In this document: one piece after another, positions 1 to 7,740 of the stretch
How the letters are laid out: every line of letters begins with the position of its first letter
Numbering within the stretch: the stretch's first letter is position 1
NCBI GenBank assembly: GCA_014239715.1
Contig: JAAZYJ010000408.1
Coordinates: forward strand, 1-8,111
DNA: 8,111 nt
Direction: 5' to 3'
Origin: Flavobacteriales bacterium
GTDB lineage: Bacteria > Bacteroidota > Bacteroidia > Flavobacteriales > Parvicellaceae
The notes under the pieces: model-generated
Told to the model about the DNA's origin: nothing
Database searches by the model: none
The model's input: only the letters and a program-made list of their open reading frames with translations
Program-made: the position numbers and the translations under genes

Positions 1-233
1 CAGACGAATTTCATGTATTTTCAATTATTTGGAACTCGAGCTCCATACAGTTCTTATTGGACGACGTTGTTTTCCGAACTGCCGATATTACCCCGGCAGG
101 ACTTAGCGCATTTCACGAAAACTTCTTCCTTATTTTTAACGTTGCCGTAGGAGGAAATTGGCCCGGAGACCCTGATGCCACAACCGTATTTCCTCAGAAA
201 ATGTATGTGGATTACGTTCGAGTATTTCAATAG
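1..233 (+). CDS. Glycoside hydrolase family 16 protein (laminarinase/beta-glucanase type), 3' end only
   Basis: The frame is open from position 3 to the TAG at 231-233 and gives the last 76 residues of a protein whose start lies outside the window. The sequence is typical of the C-terminal half of the GH16 jelly-roll. An opening DEFHVFSIIWN is followed by a strand with FLLDD, then the FNVAVGGNWPGDPDATTVFP block and a final YVDYVRVFQ strand. In bacterial GH16 enzymes of the laminarinase/lichenase group this segment closes the beta-sandwich and lines the glucan cleft. The catalytic E-x-D-x-(x)-E motif would lie upstream and cannot be seen. The protein stops right after the catalytic fold, with no T9SS sorting domain, so export or anchoring would depend on the unseen N-terminus, for example as a lipoprotein. 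The family is clear; the exact substrate (laminarin versus another beta-glucan) is inferred from the neighbours. Confidence 0.9.
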   Translation, partial: DEFHVFSIIWNSSSIQFLLDDVVFRTADITPAGLSAFHENFFLIFNVAVGGNWPGDPDATTVFPQKMYVDYVRVFQ

Positions 234-402: not shown

Positions 403-1086
403 ATGCCTCTAGATAATTTCAATTACTCTGTATCCATTGATTGTGTGATCTTCGGATATGACACAACTGACCTTAAAGTGTTGCTTATAAAAAGAGGTGA
501 AGCGCCTTATCTCAATTACTGGGCTTTGCCGGGTGACCTAATAAAAGAAAAGGAAAACATAGACAGTGCTGTTTCCCGAGTATTGAAAGATCTGACCGGA
601 CTGTCCAACGTTTATATGGATCAGGTAAAGACGTTCGGAGAAGTAGGAAGACACCCACTGGGTAGAGTTTTTACCGTTGCCTACTTCAGTCTCTTAAAAA
701 TTTCCGACTACCAGCTGAATCCATCATCCTTTGCAACAGAAGCAAAATGGCATTCGGTAAAGCGGATAGGTGAGCTGGCATTTGACCATAACAAGATCTT
801 TGCAACATGTAAACAGGAGCTCGTAAATTCAGTCAAAGTAAAACCATTAGGTTTTGAGCTACTACCGGAAGAATTCACGTTAACCGAGCTGCAAAATTTA
901 TATGAGACAATCCTGCAAACGACTTTTGACACTCGTAATTTCAGAAAAAAGATTCACTCTGTTGGATTGCTTACAGACACCGGAGAATTGCAAAAGAGTG
1001 TCTCACACCGTCCTGCCAAGCTGTACCGTTTTGACAAATCGAAATATCGGAAATTGATCAAAAGCGGATATAATTTTGAGATCTGA
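403..1086 (+). CDS. Nudix-like transcriptional regulator with C-terminal winged helix (NrtR/AraR-type family)
   Basis: This is a 227-residue cytoplasmic protein. Residues about 8-145 form a Nudix fold (VSIDCVIFGY, LKVLLIKRG, NYWALPG), and residues about 148-225 match the family's winged helix (FTLTELQNLYETIL, DTRNFRKKI, RPAKLYRF). The Nudix box at 45-67 is degenerate. The canonical Gly is D45; E51, R59 and G66 remain, but the REUxEE glutamates are V60, D63 and L64. Hydrolysis is therefore unlikely, and the domain probably serves as an effector sensor. Known relatives include the NAD regulator NrtR and sugar regulators of Bacteroidota such as the arabinose regulator AraR. The gene lies between a GH16 gene and two secreted-protein genes. 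A palindrome upstream of the next gene recurs upstream of zwf, so I infer control of beta-glucan and glucose catabolism. The effector is unknown; a sugar or sugar phosphate is the likeliest guess. Confidence 0.9.
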   Translation: MPLDNFNYSVSIDCVIFGYDTTDLKVLLIKRGEAPYLNYWALPGDLIKEKENIDSAVSRVLKDLTGLSNVYMDQVKTFGEVGRHPLGRVFTVAYFSLLKISDYQLNPSSFATEAKWHSVKRIGELAFDHNKIFATCKQELVNSVKVKPLGFELLPEEFTLTELQNLYETILQTTFDTRNFRKKIHSVGLLTDTGELQKSVSHRPAKLYRFDKSKYRKLIKSGYNFEI

Positions 1087-1235: not shown

Positions 1236-1258
1236 GTTATTGTAACTAGAACAATAAC
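1236..1258. promoter_or_regulatory. Putative operator: perfect 8-bp inverted repeat, GTTATTGT-N7-ACAATAAC
   Basis: The arms are perfect reverse complements, separated by the 7-bp spacer AACTAGA. The site ends 27 bp before the ATG of the first secreted-protein gene. The same architecture, with arms differing only at the outermost base pair, recurs at 7718-7740 upstream of zwf. Spacing of the half-sites by roughly one and a half helical turns fits a homodimeric winged-helix regulator. The Nudix-wHTH protein encoded immediately upstream is the best candidate binder, by inference from position. Confidence 0.72.
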
Positions 1259-1285: not shown

Positions 1286-2077
1286 ATGAAAAATCTTTAC
1301 CTTTTATTTTTTATAAGCATTTCGTTCTCTCTTTCCGCTCAGGTTGAGGGCACGTGGAAACTAGCACCAATGGCTGGAGCATTAGCTGTTGGACCTACTC
1401 AAGGCGATGGCTCATGGTGGGCCAATTCCCTAGCCGAAGTTACCACCAGAGGTTGTTTATTTGACGACTCCATTAAATTCGATGCTTCAGGCAATATTAC
1501 GCATTACATGGATGGAAGTACATGGTTAGAAACGTGGCAAGGGGCAGCTAGTGATGCATGTGGCACACCAGTTTCTCCACACGACGGGGCTGGTGCATTT
1601 ACGTATACTTCTACAGCTAGTCAGCTTACAGTTAATGGTGTAGGCGCTCATATTGGTCTTCCAAAAGCAATTAATGGTAGTGAGATCAGTGATCCGGCTA
1701 ACGCTGCTTCAACCATCACCTACGAAATCATGATGTCATCTGCTGGTGACACCATGACGGCGGATATTGAGATTAGCGGAGGATGGTGGAGATTTATCTA
1801 TCACAAAATAAGTTCATCATCACCAACTGAGATAATCGGAAATGAAGCCAATGAGGTATCTTTTTATCCTAATCCGGCCAGTGCTCAAATCAGGATCAAA
1901 GCAGACAAAGTTATTGATGAAGTTAGAGTACGTGATCTGACCGGAAAAGTGATATTGTCGACAACAAATGTGTTGCCGAATGAAGTCATTGACGTGTCTG
2001 GTCTTTCTAGCAGTGTTTATCTTCTGGAGTTCAGAACAGACTCGAAAAAGGTTGTGAAAAAATTAATTATTAAATAA
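1286..2077 (+). CDS. Secreted T9SS cargo protein with uncharacterised beta-rich domain, candidate beta-glucan-binding protein
   Basis: This is a 263-residue protein. Residues 1-19 are a Sec signal peptide (lysine, hydrophobic core, SLSAQ). Residues about 20-175 form a domain rich in Trp, Gly and Thr, with GTWKLAP, GDGSWW, CLFDD, WQGA, ACGTPVSPHDG and a terminal GGWWRF. C57 and C92 could form a disulfide. A Ser/Pro linker leads to a type A T9SS sorting domain at 191-263 (YPNPAS, VRDLTGKV, SSSVYLLEF, terminal KKLIIK). I see no catalytic signature of a known hydrolase. From memory, similar domains occur beside or inside GH16 proteins of marine Bacteroidota, and the exposed aromatics suggest carbohydrate binding; both points are inference. 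The palindromic operator upstream and the regulator gene next door suggest glucan-responsive expression. It is probably surface-attached or released after T9SS export. Confidence 0.82.
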   Translation: MKNLYLLFFISISFSLSAQVEGTWKLAPMAGALAVGPTQGDGSWWANSLAEVTTRGCLFDDSIKFDASGNITHYMDGSTWLETWQGAASDACGTPVSPHDGAGAFTYTSTASQLTVNGVGAHIGLPKAINGSEISDPANAASTITYEIMMSSAGDTMTADIEISGGWWRFIYHKISSSSPTEIIGNEANEVSFYPNPASAQIRIKADKVIDEVRVRDLTGKVILSTTNVLPNEVIDVSGLSSSVYLLEFRTDSKKVVKKLIIK

Positions 2078-2205: not shown

Positions 2206-3075
2206 ATGAACATTAAACAGAACATACTACTTGCCGGCTTTTGTCTTTGCTCTACACTATCCTACACACAAAATACTGTTGAAGTCAGTGTAACGGATTC
2301 TTGGGGAGCATGGATCAATTGGTTTGATCTTGGCGGCACTTATGTAGCTGGAAGCGCATGGGGAGTTTCCGATCTGAAAACTACTTTAGATTCTGCTGCA
2401 AACACGATCACTCTTCAACCAAATTTTAATGTTTACGACTCTACAGATGCTTACTGGACAGATCCATCAACTTTTCTTGGAGCAAAATTAATGGAAGGCA
2501 CCACAGTTGCTGAACCCGGCACCTCCTTTAACGGAGTGGATCTAACGTTTCATGGGTCAGTATCTGCACACACTTTAGATACTTCATTGTATGAAGCGCG
2601 TTATTTCATTAAGGCATTGGACCCAGGCGCTGGATATGCCGATGCGCTTGGCGGATCAGGAACTTTTGATCTACCCATGAGCGGAAACTTTTCGGTAACG
2701 GTTCCGGGAGCTAGTATGCCTGCAGGGTTAATTATACAATACGGCTTTACCATTTACGGTATAAATGCTAATCCAGTGAACGAAGCCGCTTTGGGCAGCG
2801 TAGTTGTAACCGCCTCTACTGCGTCAGGTCTTGCTCAATATGAGACCAACGGGATATCCATCTTCCCAAATCCGGCCAGCTCGCAATTGCACATAAGAAC
2901 AGACCAGCTCATCGACCAGATGTACGTCAGAGACCTTGGTGGGAAGCAATTACTGACTGCCGCAGCCCTTGGCCTGAACCATACCATTGACACTTCAATG
3001 TTACCAAGTGGCATATACATCGCCGAATTCAGGAATGGCAACAACAGAATATTTAAGAGGTTCGTTATACAATAA
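2206..3075 (+). CDS. Secreted T9SS cargo protein with second uncharacterised beta-sandwich-like domain, candidate glycan-binding protein
   Basis: This is a 289-residue protein. Residues 1-22 are a signal peptide ending SYTQ. Residues about 23-205 form one extracellular domain beginning VEVSVTDSWGAWINWFDLGG, then WGVSDLKTTLD, TITLQPNFNVYD, FNGVDLTFHGSVS, ARYFIKALDPGAGY and GSGTFDLPMSGNFSVTVPG. The alternating hydrophobic strands and aromatics look like a carbohydrate-binding beta-sandwich, but I recognise no named family. A type A T9SS sorting domain occupies 217-289 (IFPNPAS, VRDLGGKQL, LPSGIYIAEFR, terminal FKRFVIQ). That domain is related to the one in the preceding protein, while the N-terminal domains are not obviously related. 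The gene lies 128 bp downstream of the other secreted-protein gene in the same direction. No palindrome like 1236-1258 is seen in that gap, so read-through from upstream is likely. From memory, similar proteins accompany GH16 enzymes in marine Bacteroidota. Confidence 0.8.
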   Translation: MNIKQNILLAGFCLCSTLSYTQNTVEVSVTDSWGAWINWFDLGGTYVAGSAWGVSDLKTTLDSAANTITLQPNFNVYDSTDAYWTDPSTFLGAKLMEGTTVAEPGTSFNGVDLTFHGSVSAHTLDTSLYEARYFIKALDPGAGYADALGGSGTFDLPMSGNFSVTVPGASMPAGLIIQYGFTIYGINANPVNEAALGSVVVTASTASGLAQYETNGISIFPNPASSQLHIRTDQLIDQMYVRDLGGKQLLTAAALGLNHTIDTSMLPSGIYIAEFRNGNNRIFKRFVIQ

Positions 3076-3196: not shown

Positions 3197-3760
3197 TCAT
3201 TCAGACAGCCACGACCCGCCAACAGCGACTACATTGTCCAAAGCAAGAAAATCCTTGTAATTCTCGGAACTAATTCCACCTGTAGGACAAAATTTGATGC
3301 CCCGAAACAATTTTCCGTATGAGCGCACAGCTTCCAATCCTCCAAACAAATTTGAAGGAAAAAACTTTAAGAAACCGCAACCCAGCTCCATAGCCAGTAC
3401 TATTTCAGACGGCGTGGCAACACCCGGAAGAAACGGAATGCTCGAAGCGTCCATTGCCTTTACCATATTCCTGGTTAACCCCGGACTGACCATAAAGTCG
3501 ACCTTACTTTTGGAACAACGTTCAACGTCTTCTTCAGTCAGAACTGTCCCTACTCCAACCAGAAGTTGATCACCATATTTTTCCTGAAAAACGTGGATTG
3601 CATCCCAGGCTGCCAAGCTACGCAATGTTACTTCTACACAATTAATGGATCGGCTCAATATTGTTTTTGCAATCGTGTCCACTTCGTTCACATCATTAAC
3701 CGTAACTACCGGTATCAATTGATGTTTTTCTACTATGTTGGCTATTCCGTTTTGTAACAT
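3197..3760 (-). CDS. eda: 2-dehydro-3-deoxy-6-phosphogluconate (KDPG) aldolase, short form
   Basis: The enzyme splits KDPG into pyruvate and glyceraldehyde-3-phosphate, the last Entner-Doudoroff step, in the cytoplasm. I chose ATG 3760, which follows the edd TAA after 4 nt; the longer frame starts at TTG 3799 inside edd, and the ATG version aligns with the E. coli N-terminus. The protein is a 187-residue TIM-barrel class I aldolase. The proton-relay Glu and phosphate-contacting Arg are in VEVTLR (E43, R47). GVGTVL is at 69-74 and SPGLT at 92-96. The Schiff-base lysine is K132 in LKFFPSN, and CPTGGIS is at 158-164. The protein ends right after GGSWLSE, so it lacks the roughly 25-residue C-terminal helix present in E. 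coli Eda (213 residues). All recognisable catalytic residues remain, so activity is likely. It is the last gene of the operon. Confidence 0.94.
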   Translation of the reverse strand: MLQNGIANIVEKHQLIPVVTVNDVNEVDTIAKTILSRSINCVEVTLRSLAAWDAIHVFQEKYGDQLLVGVGTVLTEEDVERCSKSKVDFMVSPGLTRNMVKAMDASSIPFLPGVATPSEIVLAMELGCGFLKFFPSNLFGGLEAVRSYGKLFRGIKFCPTGGISSENYKDFLALDNVVAVGGSWLSE

Positions 3761-3764
3761 TGAA

Positions 3765-5567
3765 TTATAATATTCCTGCTCCGTCTTCGCTTTTTCCAAC
3801 GATCTTTCTCAGGTTTTCAAACAGACCTCGGCCGTGACTGTCGTTGTAAATATCCGATGTGCGCATTGGACGTTCTTCAACACGATCTTCAAGACACTCC
3901 AACAGTCCTTCTGTTGCATTTAATCGGATTCGATCCCCGTCGCGCAATTTACCGATGACCCCTCCATCGCAAGCTTCAGGACTAACATGAATAGCAGCAG
4001 GCACCTTTCCGGAGGCCCCGGACATCCTTCCATCTGTGATCAACCCTACCTTAAACCCCCGTTTCTGCAGCACAGTAAGGGTTGGTGTTAATTTGTGGAG
4101 CTCAGGCATTCCTTTTTGCCTCGGGCCCTGAAAAGGCAGTATCGCAATAAAGTCCTGATCAAGCTCACCTGCCTTAAACCTATTGATCAGATCATCCTGA
4201 TCGTCAAAAACAATAGCTTTTGCCTCTACTGATCGATGCACAGGATCCACTGCGGAGGTCTTTATTATTGCTGTTCCGAGATTTCCTTTTAAAACTTTTA
4301 ATCCTCCGGCCGAATCAAATGGCTCTTCAGCCGACCTGATGACCTTGCTATTTAGCGATTCCTTTGGACCTTCCTTGTAAACAATCTGATCGTTAATGAG
4401 CTTAGGCTCCATTGTGAATTTTCTCAGTCCACTCCCAAGAATTGTATTCACGTCTTCATGTAACAGGCCATTTTCCAGCAGCGTGTAGATTACATATGGC
4501 ATACCACCCGAAGCATGAAAATGGTTGACATCAGCCGGCCCATTAGGATATATCCGTGTTATCAATGGAACTACTTCAGCCAGCTCAGAAAAGTCATCCC
4601 ATCTCAGCTTAATACCGGCGGCTTTCGCTATGGCCAACAGATGCAAAGTGTGATTTGTTGAACCGCCAGTAGCCAAAAGACCAACTACTCCATTCACAAT
4701 TGCCTTTGCATCAATAATAAATCCTACGCTTCTAGTAATGTCTTTGGTTCTGATGTTTTCGATCAGTACCTTAACAGCTTCACGATTCAATGCTGATCGC
4801 ATAGGTGTATCCGGATTAACAAAGCTGGAACCGGGCAGCTGAAGACCCATTATTTCCATCAGCATTTGATTGCTGTTTGCAGTTCCATAAAATGTGCACG
4901 TTCCCGGAGAATGATAAGAGTCAGATTCCCCTTTCAGCAGCTCGGCACGATCTATCTTACCCTCCGCAAAATCCTGTCGGATCCGTGCTTTTTCGTCATT
5001 TGTGATCCCAGTATGCATCGGACCTCCAGGCATAAATACAGTTGGCAAATGTCCGAAGCTCAAATTTCCAATTAACAGGCCCGGTACTATTTTATCACAA
5101 ATACCCAGACTGACGGCACCATCGAACATGTCATGCGACAAGCCTATAGCAGTGGATAGTGCAATTACATCTCGACTAAGAAGCGACAAGTCCATCCCCG
5201 GCTGACCTTGAGTCACACCATCACACATTGCCGGTGTAGCTCCGGCTACCTGAGCAGTTCCCTCAAATTCATTTGCATATTCCCGTATTATTTTCGGATA
5301 GTCTTCATACGTCTTGTGTGCAGACAGCATGTCGTTATAGGCGGTAATAATGCCAATATTGGGTTCTATGCCCTCAGACAAAAGTTTTTTATCATCCACA
5401 CCGCAAGCCGCAAAACCATGCGCCAAATTACCACAGCTCAGATGAGTCCTATTCACTGAATGGTTAAAATTTCGTTCACATTTTTCCAAATATCTCGACC
5501 TCACTTCACCGCTTCTTTCTCGAATCCGATCTGTTACCCTCTCAATATTTTGGTTTAATTTACTCAC
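3765..5567 (-). CDS. edd: 6-phosphogluconate dehydratase
   Basis: The enzyme dehydrates 6-phosphogluconate to KDPG, the committing Entner-Doudoroff step, using an iron-sulfur cluster (IlvD/Edd family). I chose the GTG start at 5567. It gives 600 residues (E. coli Edd has 603), begins MSKLNQNIERVTDRIRERS like the family, and overlaps the pgl stop by 8 nt; a start at 5627 would add 20 unrelated residues. Family motifs are intact: CGNLAHGFAAC (45-55), ITAYNDMLSAH (74-84), AMCDGVTQGQ with C115, ICDKIVPG with C157, PGTCTFYGTANSNQ with C224, then LLATGGSTNHTLHL, YPNGPADVNHF, LLHEDVNT and the closing LITDGRMSGASGKVPAAIHVSPE. Cys115 and Cys157 are probable cluster ligands by family comparison. The length and motifs favour Edd over dihydroxyacid dehydratase (IlvD), and the zwf-pgl-edd-eda context confirms the role. 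Confidence 0.97.
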   Translation of the reverse strand: MSKLNQNIERVTDRIRERSGEVRSRYLEKCERNFNHSVNRTHLSCGNLAHGFAACGVDDKKLLSEGIEPNIGIITAYNDMLSAHKTYEDYPKIIREYANEFEGTAQVAGATPAMCDGVTQGQPGMDLSLLSRDVIALSTAIGLSHDMFDGAVSLGICDKIVPGLLIGNLSFGHLPTVFMPGGPMHTGITNDEKARIRQDFAEGKIDRAELLKGESDSYHSPGTCTFYGTANSNQMLMEIMGLQLPGSSFVNPDTPMRSALNREAVKVLIENIRTKDITRSVGFIIDAKAIVNGVVGLLATGGSTNHTLHLLAIAKAAGIKLRWDDFSELAEVVPLITRIYPNGPADVNHFHASGGMPYVIYTLLENGLLHEDVNTILGSGLRKFTMEPKLINDQIVYKEGPKESLNSKVIRSAEEPFDSAGGLKVLKGNLGTAIIKTSAVDPVHRSVEAKAIVFDDQDDLINRFKAGELDQDFIAILPFQGPRQKGMPELHKLTPTLTVLQKRGFKVGLITDGRMSGASGKVPAAIHVSPEACDGGVIGKLRDGDRIRLNATEGLLECLEDRVEERPMRTSDIYNDSHGRGLFENLRKIVGKSEDGAGIL

Positions 5568-6240
5568 TCCAATAAATTTTAATGTCAGGCCGTTCTTCCA
5601 GAAAGCTATGAATCGGCAGCTGCTCACCTTCCATCAGTAGATCTCGTTTTTCGTTTCCGCTGATCAGCAAGAATATGTTGGTAGCTTTACAAAGGAGATG
5701 TTTGCTGCAGGTGATCCTTTGAAAAGGAAAGATCGGTGAGGTGGTGTAATGATAATGCTCTGTCTTTGTGGTTAAAGCGGCAACTGAGGCTTCATCATAT
5801 GGGAATATAGAGGCCGTATGCCCATCTGTACCCATACCCAGAATAACCAGATCGGTTTTTTCCTCGAAACAGGAATACTGCATTGTCAATTGATCCAGAT
5901 TATACTGCTTATCCACCCGATCTATAACCATTCCTAAAAATTTACCATTGGACGCCTCATCCCTAAGCAATGATTCAAAAATCAATTTTTCATTGCTGTA
6001 CTCACTCTCCCTCGACACAAATCTGTCATCAACCAGTCCAACGGTTATTTTGTGCCAGGGCAAAGCAACTTTGGATAGTTTTGCATACACCGGGATGGGT
6101 GTTGAGCCGCCGGAAAGTAATAAATTAGGGTTCAATCCTGCATCCAAAGACCTCTTTATTATCTCTTCGCATGAACTAACCACGGATTGATACATTTCAG
6201 ATATCGTCTGAAAACTGCACATATTCAATTCTTTCACCAT
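5560..6240 (-). CDS. pgl: 6-phosphogluconolactonase (DevB/Pgl family)
   Basis: The enzyme hydrolyses 6-phosphogluconolactone, the unstable product of Zwf, to 6-phosphogluconate. The protein has 226 residues, close to the family's usual length. It carries the phosphosugar-binding LLSGGSTP (41-48), a VGLVDDRFV strand (67-75; DERxV in most relatives), the ESEYSNEKLIFESLL helix, and the hallmark GMGTDGHTASIFP (135-147). RIT followed by a C-terminal LLISGNEKRDLL completes the fold. The ATG at 6240 is embedded in the zwf end (ATGGTGA), a 7-nt overlap typical of translational coupling, and has a strong AAGGAG upstream. An in-frame ATG at codon 7 is less likely because of that ribosome binding site. 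The 3' end overlaps the edd GTG start. This is not the unrelated YbhE-type (beta-propeller) lactonase. Confidence 0.95.
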   Translation of the reverse strand: MVKELNMCSFQTISEMYQSVVSSCEEIIKRSLDAGLNPNLLLSGGSTPIPVYAKLSKVALPWHKITVGLVDDRFVSRESEYSNEKLIFESLLRDEASNGKFLGMVIDRVDKQYNLDQLTMQYSCFEEKTDLVILGMGTDGHTASIFPYDEASVAALTTKTEHYHYTTSPIFPFQRITCSKHLLCKATNIFLLISGNEKRDLLMEGEQLPIHSFLEERPDIKIYWSE

Positions 6241-7697
6241 TGTAATTCTCCTTCCATTATTTCTTCACCCGGTCCCCAGGTACCAGATTCATATAAAACC
6301 AACCTCGACTCTTTCATCCAGTTCCTGGTAATAGACTCTATCCAAGTCCAAGCGGCTTCTAATTCGTCGTGTCTCATAAAAAGTGTCTGATTCCCCCGTA
6401 ATATATCTATGATCAGTCGCTCATATGCGTACTGCATTCTTTTCTTAAATGAGTCAACAAAATCCAGCTTAAGTGAGATTGGTTTAAATCTATACCCTCC
6501 GGGCCCCGGAATCTTGCTCATCTGCACCAGCTCAATACGCTCTTCAGGCTGTAGCCGAATGATCAATTTATTTACCATATCAAATTGAGAATCCGGAAAT
6601 ATATTGTGCTGAACCGCTTTGAAATTGATCACAATATCAGAGTATCTCTTTTTCAGTCTTTTTCCGGTGCGTAAATAGAATGGGGTATTCTTCCATCTCC
6701 AATTATCAATGTAGGCCTTTATGGCAACAAAAGTCTCTGTGTCAGAATTGTATTTTTCGATATCCTCCAGGTAAGAATTAACTTTTTCTCCTCTTATGGT
6801 ACCTCTTGTATACTGGCCACGAACCAAATTGTCTCCAGCCATTTTTTTATCAAATAAGCGTAGCGATTGCAGTACTTTCAGCTTTTCATTCCTCACCGCA
6901 TCAGGGGTCAGCTGAGATGGTGGTTCCATTGCTATAAGGCACAGCAGTTGAAGCAAGTGGTTCTGCACCATATCAAGCAACGCTCCGGTCTTATCATAAT
7001 AGCCGGCCCTGTTTTCAACGCCGAGCTTTTCCGCAACCGTTATTTGAATACAGTCAATGTTCTCTGCGTTCCATGCCCGCTCGAAAAGATGATTGGCAAA
7101 ACGAAGAACCATGAGATTCTGAACCGTTTCCTTCCCCAGATAATGATCGATCCTGAATATTTGCTTTTCGGAGAATGCTCCTAGAACCGTATTGTTTATT
7201 AGTTTACTTGATTCCAGATCATGTCCCAGTGGCTTCTCCAATACAACTTTGCTATTTGGCTGGATCAACTTTTTGGATTTCAGCACACCACATATTTCAG
7301 CAAAAGCAGAAGATGGAACGGATAGATAATACACCCTTTGCCATTCTTGATGCTCATTTACAATCATCGCCAGCTTTTCAAACTCTTTGTCTGTCATCTT
7401 AGCAAGATTGACCAGGTGAACCTTCTTAAAAAACTCCTCGACCAGCCCCATTTGACCATTTTGGTCAACGGCTTCCTTAATGAAACCGCGTAGCTTACTT
7501 TTTAGTTTCTTCTCTTCCTTAATAGATCGGGAAATGCACAGAACCTTGAAGTCCATATCAAGCTGACCATCCAACCAACGATAAAAGAAGGCAGGAATGA
7601 TCTTGCGTGTTGACAGATCTCCATCACCTCCAAATATGATTGCATAAAATGGTTTTATTTCGGTATTGGTATTCAGCTGAGTTTTCGATCCTTGCAT
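6234..7697 (-). CDS. zwf: Glucose-6-phosphate 1-dehydrogenase
   Basis: The enzyme oxidises glucose-6-phosphate to 6-phosphogluconolactone with NADP+ or NAD+, the entry to both the Entner-Doudoroff and pentose phosphate routes. With the ATG at 7697 the protein has 487 residues, as usual for bacteria; the frame extends to a TTG at 7709, but that adds only four residues. The Rossmann segment is IIFGGDGDLSTRK (20-32), a GxxGDL nucleotide motif, and EKPLGHDL is at 154-161. The substrate site RIDHYLGKE is at 182-190 with H185. VENRAGYYDKTGALLDMVQNH ends at the catalytic base H247, 62 residues after H185 exactly as in the Leuconostoc enzyme (H178/H240). The C-terminal half has FYLRTGKRL and RHDELEAAWTW. 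It is the first gene of the operon, and a perfect palindrome lies 20 bp before its start. Confidence 0.97.
   Translation of the reverse strand: MQGSKTQLNTNTEIKPFYAIIFGGDGDLSTRKIIPAFFYRWLDGQLDMDFKVLCISRSIKEEKKLKSKLRGFIKEAVDQNGQMGLVEEFFKKVHLVNLAKMTDKEFEKLAMIVNEHQEWQRVYYLSVPSSAFAEICGVLKSKKLIQPNSKVVLEKPLGHDLESSKLINNTVLGAFSEKQIFRIDHYLGKETVQNLMVLRFANHLFERAWNAENIDCIQITVAEKLGVENRAGYYDKTGALLDMVQNHLLQLLCLIAMEPPSQLTPDAVRNEKLKVLQSLRLFDKKMAGDNLVRGQYTRGTIRGEKVNSYLEDIEKYNSDTETFVAIKAYIDNWRWKNTPFYLRTGKRLKKRYSDIVINFKAVQHNIFPDSQFDMVNKLIIRLQPEERIELVQMSKIPGPGGYRFKPISLKLDFVDSFKKRMQYAYERLIIDILRGNQTLFMRHDELEAAWTWIESITRNWMKESRLVLYESGTWGPGEEIMEGELQW
6248..6253 (-). promoter_or_regulatory. Strong Shine-Dalgarno for pgl inside the zwf 3' end
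   Basis: On the minus strand AAGGAG sits 7 nt before the pgl ATG at 6240, within the last codons of zwf. Such a good match is unusual for Bacteroidota, whose genes mostly lack clear Shine-Dalgarno sites. It supports the chosen pgl start over the ATG at codon 7. Confidence 0.6.
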
Positions 7698-7713
7698 ACG
7701 AACACGCAAGATA

Positions 7714-7721
7714 CAACCTTA
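7714..7721 (-). promoter_or_regulatory. Possible -7 element of the zwf operon overlapping the operator
   Basis: On the minus strand TAAGGTTG differs from TAnnTTTG at one base and overlaps the palindrome at 7718-7740 by 4 bp. It would give a very short leader before the ATG at 7697. No clear -33 TTG is present at the right distance. If real, a protein on the palindrome would block RNA polymerase directly. Confidence 0.22.
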
Positions 7722-7740
7722 TTGTATATTAAACAATAAG
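7718..7740. promoter_or_regulatory. Putative operator upstream of the zwf operon: CTTATTGT-N7-ACAATAAG
   Basis: This is a perfect 8-bp inverted repeat with the 7-bp spacer ATATTAA, ending 20 bp before the zwf ATG. Apart from the outer base pair, the arms are identical to those of the palindrome at 1236-1258, and the spacer length is the same while the spacer sequence differs. This is the pattern expected of two binding sites for one dimeric regulator. The AT-rich stretch 7741-7867 beyond it holds a lone half-site, TTATTGT at 7839-7845, and no recognisable gene. Confidence 0.72.

Follow-up and report, generated by a model that had tools for sequence, protein, structure and literature searches.

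Two matched palindromes as candidate operators of a Nudix-type sugar regulator at a flavobacterial Entner-Doudoroff locus

The stretch of DNA analysed here, termed the window, comprises 8,111 nucleotides of a Flavobacteriales contig. It carries, in order, the end of a GH16 gene, a Nudix-wHTH gene, a first palindromic site and two T9SS genes, followed on the opposite strand by eda, edd, pgl, zwf and a second palindromic site (Table 1). The Entner-Doudoroff (ED) operon recognised in the initial annotation is borne out, as each of its four genes scores above an NCBIfam cut-off; the edd profile match begins at residue 26, and thus the true start of this gene is probably further in. The two proteins encoded behind site 1 had also been described as secreted glucan proteins. 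Their secretion (T9SS tails) and the glucan context stand, but neither contains a recognised glucan domain: apart from the sorting tail, nothing in either protein exceeds the Pfam or NCBIfam profile cut-offs. What ties them to glucan is context, namely the GH16 piece at 3-230 together with homologous SusC/SusD/GH16/GH3 loci. A relative of the first secreted protein is encoded in 79 of the 399 sampled genomes of the order. Its N-terminal region of approx. 180 residues (window positions 1286-1830) belongs to no Pfam family, yet it is recurrent, sometimes occurring twice per gene or side by side.

Table 1. Genes and candidate regulatory sites of the window
Feature	Coordinates	Strand	Remarks
GH16 glycoside hydrolase, C-terminal end (beta-glucanase type)	3..233	+	profile scan of 3-230
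Nudix-wHTH transcription factor of the NrtR/AraR kind, likely binder of both operators	403..1086	+	
Candidate operator 1, GTTATTGT-aactaga-ACAATAAC	1236..1258	.	5' of the T9SS-tailed protein gene 1286-2077
Secreted protein with T9SS type A tail, first gene behind operator 1	1286..2077	+	N-terminal part without Pfam family
Second T9SS-tailed protein	2206..3075	+	128 bases downstream; own operator not found
eda, KDPG aldolase	3197..3799	-	TIGR01182 above cut-off
edd, phosphogluconate dehydratase	3765..5627	-	TIGR01196 above cut-off
pgl, 6-phosphogluconolactonase	5560..6240	-	TIGR01198 above cut-off
zwf, glucose-6-phosphate dehydrogenase, first gene of the ED operon	6234..7709 (TTG 7709 or ATG 7697)	-	TIGR00871 above cut-off
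Candidate operator 2, CTTATTGT-atattaa-ACAATAAG	7718..7740	.	5' of zwf (ED operon)

Both palindromes are perfect inverted repeats with a gap of 7 bp and, as first described, they are unlike only in the spacer and the outermost pair. They are the only perfect inverted repeats with 8-bp arms and gaps of 0-12 in the window. When the window was shuffled 1000 times with dinucleotide composition retained, 8-N7-8 repeats arose at a mean of 0.176 per shuffle; at least two were present in 9 of the 1000 shuffles, and two with a common 7-bp core in none. The pair is real and is not a product of chance. Each site had also been placed less than 30 bp from a first gene, and the measured distances agree: site 1 is separated from the ATG at 1286 by 27 bases, and site 2 from the zwf ATG at 7697 by 20 (8 if the TTG at 7709 is used). 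At up to three mismatches, the core pattern has one extra match in the window, an unconvincing one at 5555-5575 within the edd reading frame, and no site was found 5' of the regulator gene itself. Because three matches at this tolerance were also reached by 14 of 200 window shuffles, the in-window weight is placed on the exact matches only.

The protein encoded at 403-1086 scores above cut-off for PF00293, PF21906 and PF19368. Profiles and predicted fold agree in assigning it to the NrtR/AraR-type factors, with a predicted N-terminal Nudix-like domain and a C-terminal NrtR-type wHTH. The Nudix catalytic box has decayed relative to the consensus GX5-EX7REUXEEXGU; in particular, three of its four glutamates are replaced by V60, D63 and L64, and its first glycine by D45. 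Among the loci fetched, the closest regulator (74-75% identity) is that of a Flavobacteriales MAG (L001); closer entries in the protein collection are 94% and 87% identical to the window regulator, and proteins there carry the names 'NUDIX hydrolase' and '8-oxo-dGTP diphosphatase'. Furthermore, no relatives were found in the viral contigs searched.

Relatives were sampled as the best 80 of at least 569 confirmed regulator homologues, which gave 81 sequences including the window. Since the motif TTAKTGT-N7-ACAMTAA was seeded from the window and these same loci, the relevant comparison is a change of gap. With up to two mismatches, the 7-bp gap yielded 100 sites (63 of them intergenic) in the 81 loci, against 18-52 for gaps of 3-6 and 8-11; within 300 bases of the ends of the factor gene there were 31 sites in 29 of the 81 loci, against 2-12 sites for the other gaps. 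Sixty permuted half-sites, a softer control than the gap, averaged 17.2 intergenic and 4.75 factor-adjacent sites (maxima 45 and 22; observed 63 and 31). Inverted repeats counted independently of their sequence exceeded shuffles at many gaps across the loci and showed no excess particular to gap 7; the gap-7 excess is a property of the sequence-specific motif only. These counts bear on the idea that the repeats are chance structures or RNA-level hairpins that have no protein partner. Inverted repeats do come readily in AT-rich intergenic DNA, and the many gaps above shuffles accord with this idea; however, both the 7-bp gap and the sequence are kept across genomes and genes, and no shuffle produced the pair, which leaves it barely credible.

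At the level of whole genomes, 55 factor-bearing genomes contained 89 exact sites versus 4 backward controls, whereas 66 relatives without a factor match at 1e-40 contained 17 versus 42. The former come from several GTDB families and comprise four additional genomes besides those of 51 fetched loci (of 80), and the latter are members of one GTDB family (that of genome G004). As the comparison runs across taxa and the sites are not independent, no weight is given to the p-value of this test. No exact site was found in 19 of the 55 factor-bearing genomes. The genome-wide claim uses exact sites only because at one mismatch the whole-genome counts (forward/control 10/12, 17/12, 15/11, 20/8, 18/15, 14/6, 6/6 and 6/4) lay barely above, or under, the backward control in several genomes. 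A count over 131 promoters was set aside, as it took in loci picked for having sites. The motif scan proposed at the outset, run on relatives, has thus shown that the motif is not randomly scattered, that it is kept 5' of orthologous genes and that it tracks the Nudix regulator.

Conservation 5' of the secreted-protein gene was assessed in 30 loci taken from the best matches to the 1286-2077 protein, with approx. 250 bases upstream of the gene scanned. A site with up to two mismatches was present in 24 of the 30 loci (exact in 6), and nine other gaps gave 0-6 each, none exact. Among the gap controls, the 12-bp gap was the highest, with 6/30 in this set and 4/15 in the GAPDH/zwf set considered below. 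All but one of these 30 genomes encode a factor homologue, 7 at 68-73% identity and the rest at 45-52%. Five of the seven genomes with the closer factor have an exact site, and the other two (G205, G193) have sites with 3-4 mismatches. The 1.6-Mb genome G244 has an exact site 5' of the secreted-protein gene and no factor was found in it, perhaps because the assembly is incomplete. In six genomes (G436, G445, G506, G501, G523, G346), the genes of the factor and the secreted protein are immediate neighbours, as they are in the window; in three of these six the site has 3 mismatches. The arrangement in G356 is more extended and comprises, in order, an MFS transporter, the factor, an exact site, a SusC-type receptor, SusD, a PKD protein, one unnamed gene, GH3, a site and the secreted protein. 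Loci L247-L272 (e.g., L253), the factors of which are 45-48% identical to that of the window, have an asymmetric site, CTTATTGT-N7-ACTATATT, 5' of the gene of the secreted protein, a pattern suggestive of divergence of one half-site together with the factor.

Site 2 was compared with the upstream regions of zwf genes that are preceded by an intergenic stretch of at least 90 bases. Mismatches to the site numbered 0 in the window, 1 in L175, 2 in L171, 2 in L172 and its near twin L173, and 3 in L174; zwf has the site in independent ED loci. No site was found 5' of zwf in L176 and L177 (genomes G007 and G001, respectively), where zwf follows a kinase-type gene of the same strand at a distance of only 32 and 4 bases, respectively, and these zwf genes may therefore be operon-internal. 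Several genomes resemble the window more widely. G004 and its near twin G046 have sites 5' of zwf and of T9SS proteins and a further one that separates the factor from a sugar-kinase gene; the G004 locus also contains GH3 and a gene that matches the GH2 barrel. In G006, the centre of a site is 37 bases 5' of the zwf start, and in G005 a site separates the divergent kinase and zwf genes. G001 has one site 5' of an SSF symporter and another (2 mismatches) 5' of a SusC gene, and G083 has sites 5' of the kinase, of pfkA and of a GluP-like transporter that scores just under cut-off. The gapA gene has a site in G002, G003, G005, G006 and G007, and none was found 5' of gapA in G001, G010, G046 and G083 or of the second copies in G005 and G006; at up to two mismatches, 6 of 10 GAPDH genes, some of them paralogues, lacked a site.

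The operator-linked kinase was considered as glucokinase-like, an assignment that was dropped: the gene has no Pfam or NCBIfam match in G004, G083, G005 or G001, and its relatives in the PDB are GlcNAc/MurNAc kinases, by which it is best described as a putative amino-sugar-kinase-type enzyme. Copies in G006 and Pedobacter are 44% and 39% identical, respectively. G005 contains near-identical copies of its mgsA and ED regions on separate contigs (L120/L121, L143/L144), which reflect either duplication or mixed strains.

Loci L179-L239 hold 64 exact sites, and 57 genes behind them were taken for Pfam analysis. Omitted were L181 (factor, sugar kinase and phosphofructokinase, a region profiled separately), L206 and L207 (intragenic sites), one L239 gene, and L199 and L208 (no convincing gene). 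At divergent pairs or where shorter ORFs lay nearer, the target was picked by eye; the nearer ORF passed over was acyl-carrier-like for pyruvate kinase in L191 and L217 and 59-74 residues long for GAPDH in L182, L201 and L215. With targets chosen in this way, GAPDH accounts for 13 of the 57 genes (13 genomes) and pyruvate kinase for 7 (6 genomes), and PEPCK, FBPase, GlgE-type and SSF genes appear once each among the matches listed (the first 25 of 40 families). Some targets suit this pattern poorly, namely a sulfate permease, a MeaB/mutase-like gene, two M28 peptidases, a solute-binding protein and an anion symporter. The initial annotation had pictured a special bridge between polysaccharide capture and the ED pathway. 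This picture proved too narrow, as the operators of relatives also lie 5' of GAPDH, pyruvate kinase and phosphofructokinase; further targets are the putative amino-sugar-kinase-type sugar kinase, methylglyoxal synthase, FBPase, PEPCK and glycogen-type genes. Exact operators also precede three similar small proteins in three genomes (L198, L204, L209); the L198 protein has an AMPK1-type glycogen-binding module, a family matched by 2 of the 57 scanned genes. In G003, an exact operator (L127 2558) lies 5' of a gene that matches GlnII-type glutamine synthetase under cut-off, where a carbon-nitrogen link or a chance site is possible.

The best-characterised relative for comparison is BtAraR (BT0354), the NrtR-family L-arabinose repressor of Bacteroides thetaiotaomicron, which was crystallised with the operator GTGT-N7-ACAC (PMC4666351, Table 2). 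The 4-N7-4 spacing of this operator equals that of the window sites; the half-site is TTGT in the window and GTGT in BtAraR. In the co-crystal, K179 reads the first G of GTGT, and K179, R180, N181, K184, K204 and R205 are absolutely conserved in AraR (PMC4666351). Four of these six base-contacting residues are kept in the window factor (R178, N179, K182, R203), whereas K179 and K204 correspond to T177 and H202, so that the full AraR set is not present. The proteins are ~35% identical overall, and the BtAraR pocket residues F36 and F49 are E33 and L46 in the window; arabinose genes, which AraR controls as the ara operon and arabinan genes, were not found in the window or among the identified targets in relatives. 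When loci with mixed or unread residues are omitted, half-sites of factors with T at position 177 carry T 26 times and G 2 times, and those of K-type factors carry G 54, T 42 and A 4 times. A role of residue 177 (K or T) in setting the half-site base is no more than suggestive: at the genome level, the covariation is not significant (p 0.066, with three T-type sequences that have listed exact sites), and the K-type genomes G004, G045 and G046 also contain T-T sites.

As the presence of the factor predicts the sites, the sites adjoin its gene and the spacing equals that of the BtAraR co-crystal, the factor is supported, not proven, as their binder, and on sequence grounds it is very likely to be the protein that occupies them. 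The assignment competes with another dimeric regulator, for instance a Crp-like one, that merely co-occurs with the Nudix factor. Crp-like sites of Bacteroides also lie 5' of sugar operons according to the available portion of PMC3878776, and the assignment to the Nudix factor draws on sequence comparison. However, the consensus published there, wwwTATGTTnTAnAACATAwww, has another half-site and a 4-bp gap. The palindromes share half-site core and gap with the operator crystallised with BtAraR, the Nudix gene itself is flanked by sites in 29 of the 81 loci, and exact sites are enriched only where the Nudix factor is present, which makes a different binder unlikely.

The reading preferred here, to which we assign a probability of roughly 0.85, is that both palindromes are operators of the Nudix-wHTH protein within a wider central-sugar regulon. 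The factor is probably a dimer that would place each recognition helix on one TTGT/ACAA half-site across the 7-bp gap. It would switch the T9SS secreted-protein gene and zwf-pgl-edd-eda together in response to sugar, and the wider regulon common to relatives would comprise the sugar kinase, pfkA, gapA, pyk, mgsA, sugar symporters and SusC-type glucan loci. By analogy with BtAraR, the factor plausibly acts mainly as a repressor freed by its ligand, and it seems somewhat favoured that this ligand is a hexose-derived sugar or sugar phosphate and not ADP-ribose or L-arabinose. The best reading of the regulon is one that would be HexR-like in its targets and unrelated to HexR in its protein. HexR, a Proteobacterial member of the RpiR family, controls zwf-pgl, edd, eda, glk and pykA, and wider glycolysis in some lineages, as given in the accessible part of PMC5343134. 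The zwf-pgl-edd-eda and pyk targets are shared, here as judged by operator position. The protein family (RpiR versus Nudix-wHTH) and the operator differ, and the present regulon would also include T9SS and SusC-type capture genes as well as the amino-sugar-kinase-type kinase.

Sugar regulators of the NrtR family, AraR and XylR, have been published (PMC4666351 and the available portion of PMC3878776), and no description of ED or glycolysis control by a Nudix regulator in Bacteroidota was found in the open-licence papers searched. In the parts of the sources available, PMC5343134 treats NrtR and HexR apart, in Proteobacteria, and PMC5507952 marks HexR and CceR regulons; neither the latter text nor that of PMC5698469 mentions Nudix or NrtR there. 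To our knowledge, none of HexR, Cra and CggR is well known from Bacteroidota, so that the coordination of glycolysis with polysaccharide capture in this phylum is largely an open question. With one factor whose operator can be read, such coordination becomes directly testable in cultured hosts. If the preferred reading is true, a protein now called a hydrolase or diphosphatase becomes a sugar regulator, and glucan-use regulons become readable from genomes.

A further alternative is that the Nudix factor governs NAD metabolism, like the classical ADP-ribose-responsive NrtR of Shewanella and others, and that its link to sugar genes is incidental. Among NCBIfam models, the one nearest to the factor is indeed an ADP-ribose-responsive repressor, though the score lies far under cut-off (145.6 of 400 bits), and operators lie 5' of nicotinate phosphoribosyltransferase in L074 (Myxococcota; L074 670; exact) and L073 (Acidobacteriota; L073 8257; 2 mismatches). 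However, in a tree of 101 factors, the window falls inside a 77-row Bacteroidota clade (98/87), and the rows with NAD-type neighbours, those of L074 and L073 included, fall outside it. Moreover, the targets of the window and its kin are mostly sugar genes, and the ADP-ribose contacts of SoNrtR (K76, R98 and N43 in the portion of the source available) align with L64, L86 and E33 of the window, so that control of NAD metabolism appears quite improbable. The factors of L102-L111, which belong to this outside group with NAD-type neighbours, adjoin genes read by eye as PRPP-synthetase-like.

BtXylR (BT0791), a predicted NrtR-family xylose regulator of Bacteroidetes according to PMC4666351 and the available part of PMC3878776, belongs to the same family and phylum as the window factor. 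The xylose-linked kin L037 and L059 form their own branch (100/97) outside the 77-row clade, and in their genomes the operator lies 5' of xylose isomerase (L238) and of a xylulokinase-like gene (L059; under the XylB cut-off). Because the same operator stands before xylose-type and NAD-type genes outside the clade, it seems older than the regulon. One may go further and picture the Nudix-fold factor as a general glycolysis/ED regulator, equivalent to Cra, HexR or CggR, in much of Bacteroidota. It would sense a phosphorylated sugar in its decayed nucleotide pocket, and one 21-bp operator would have persisted through shifts of the regulon among NAD salvage, pentoses, lower glycolysis and glucan capture; we hold this proposal tentatively, at slightly under even odds. 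In the Cytophagaceae MAG G124, the genome of L037, exact operators (L238, L239) lie 5' of xylose isomerase and of a gene with weak xylanase/esterase similarity, which suggests an XylR-type branch.
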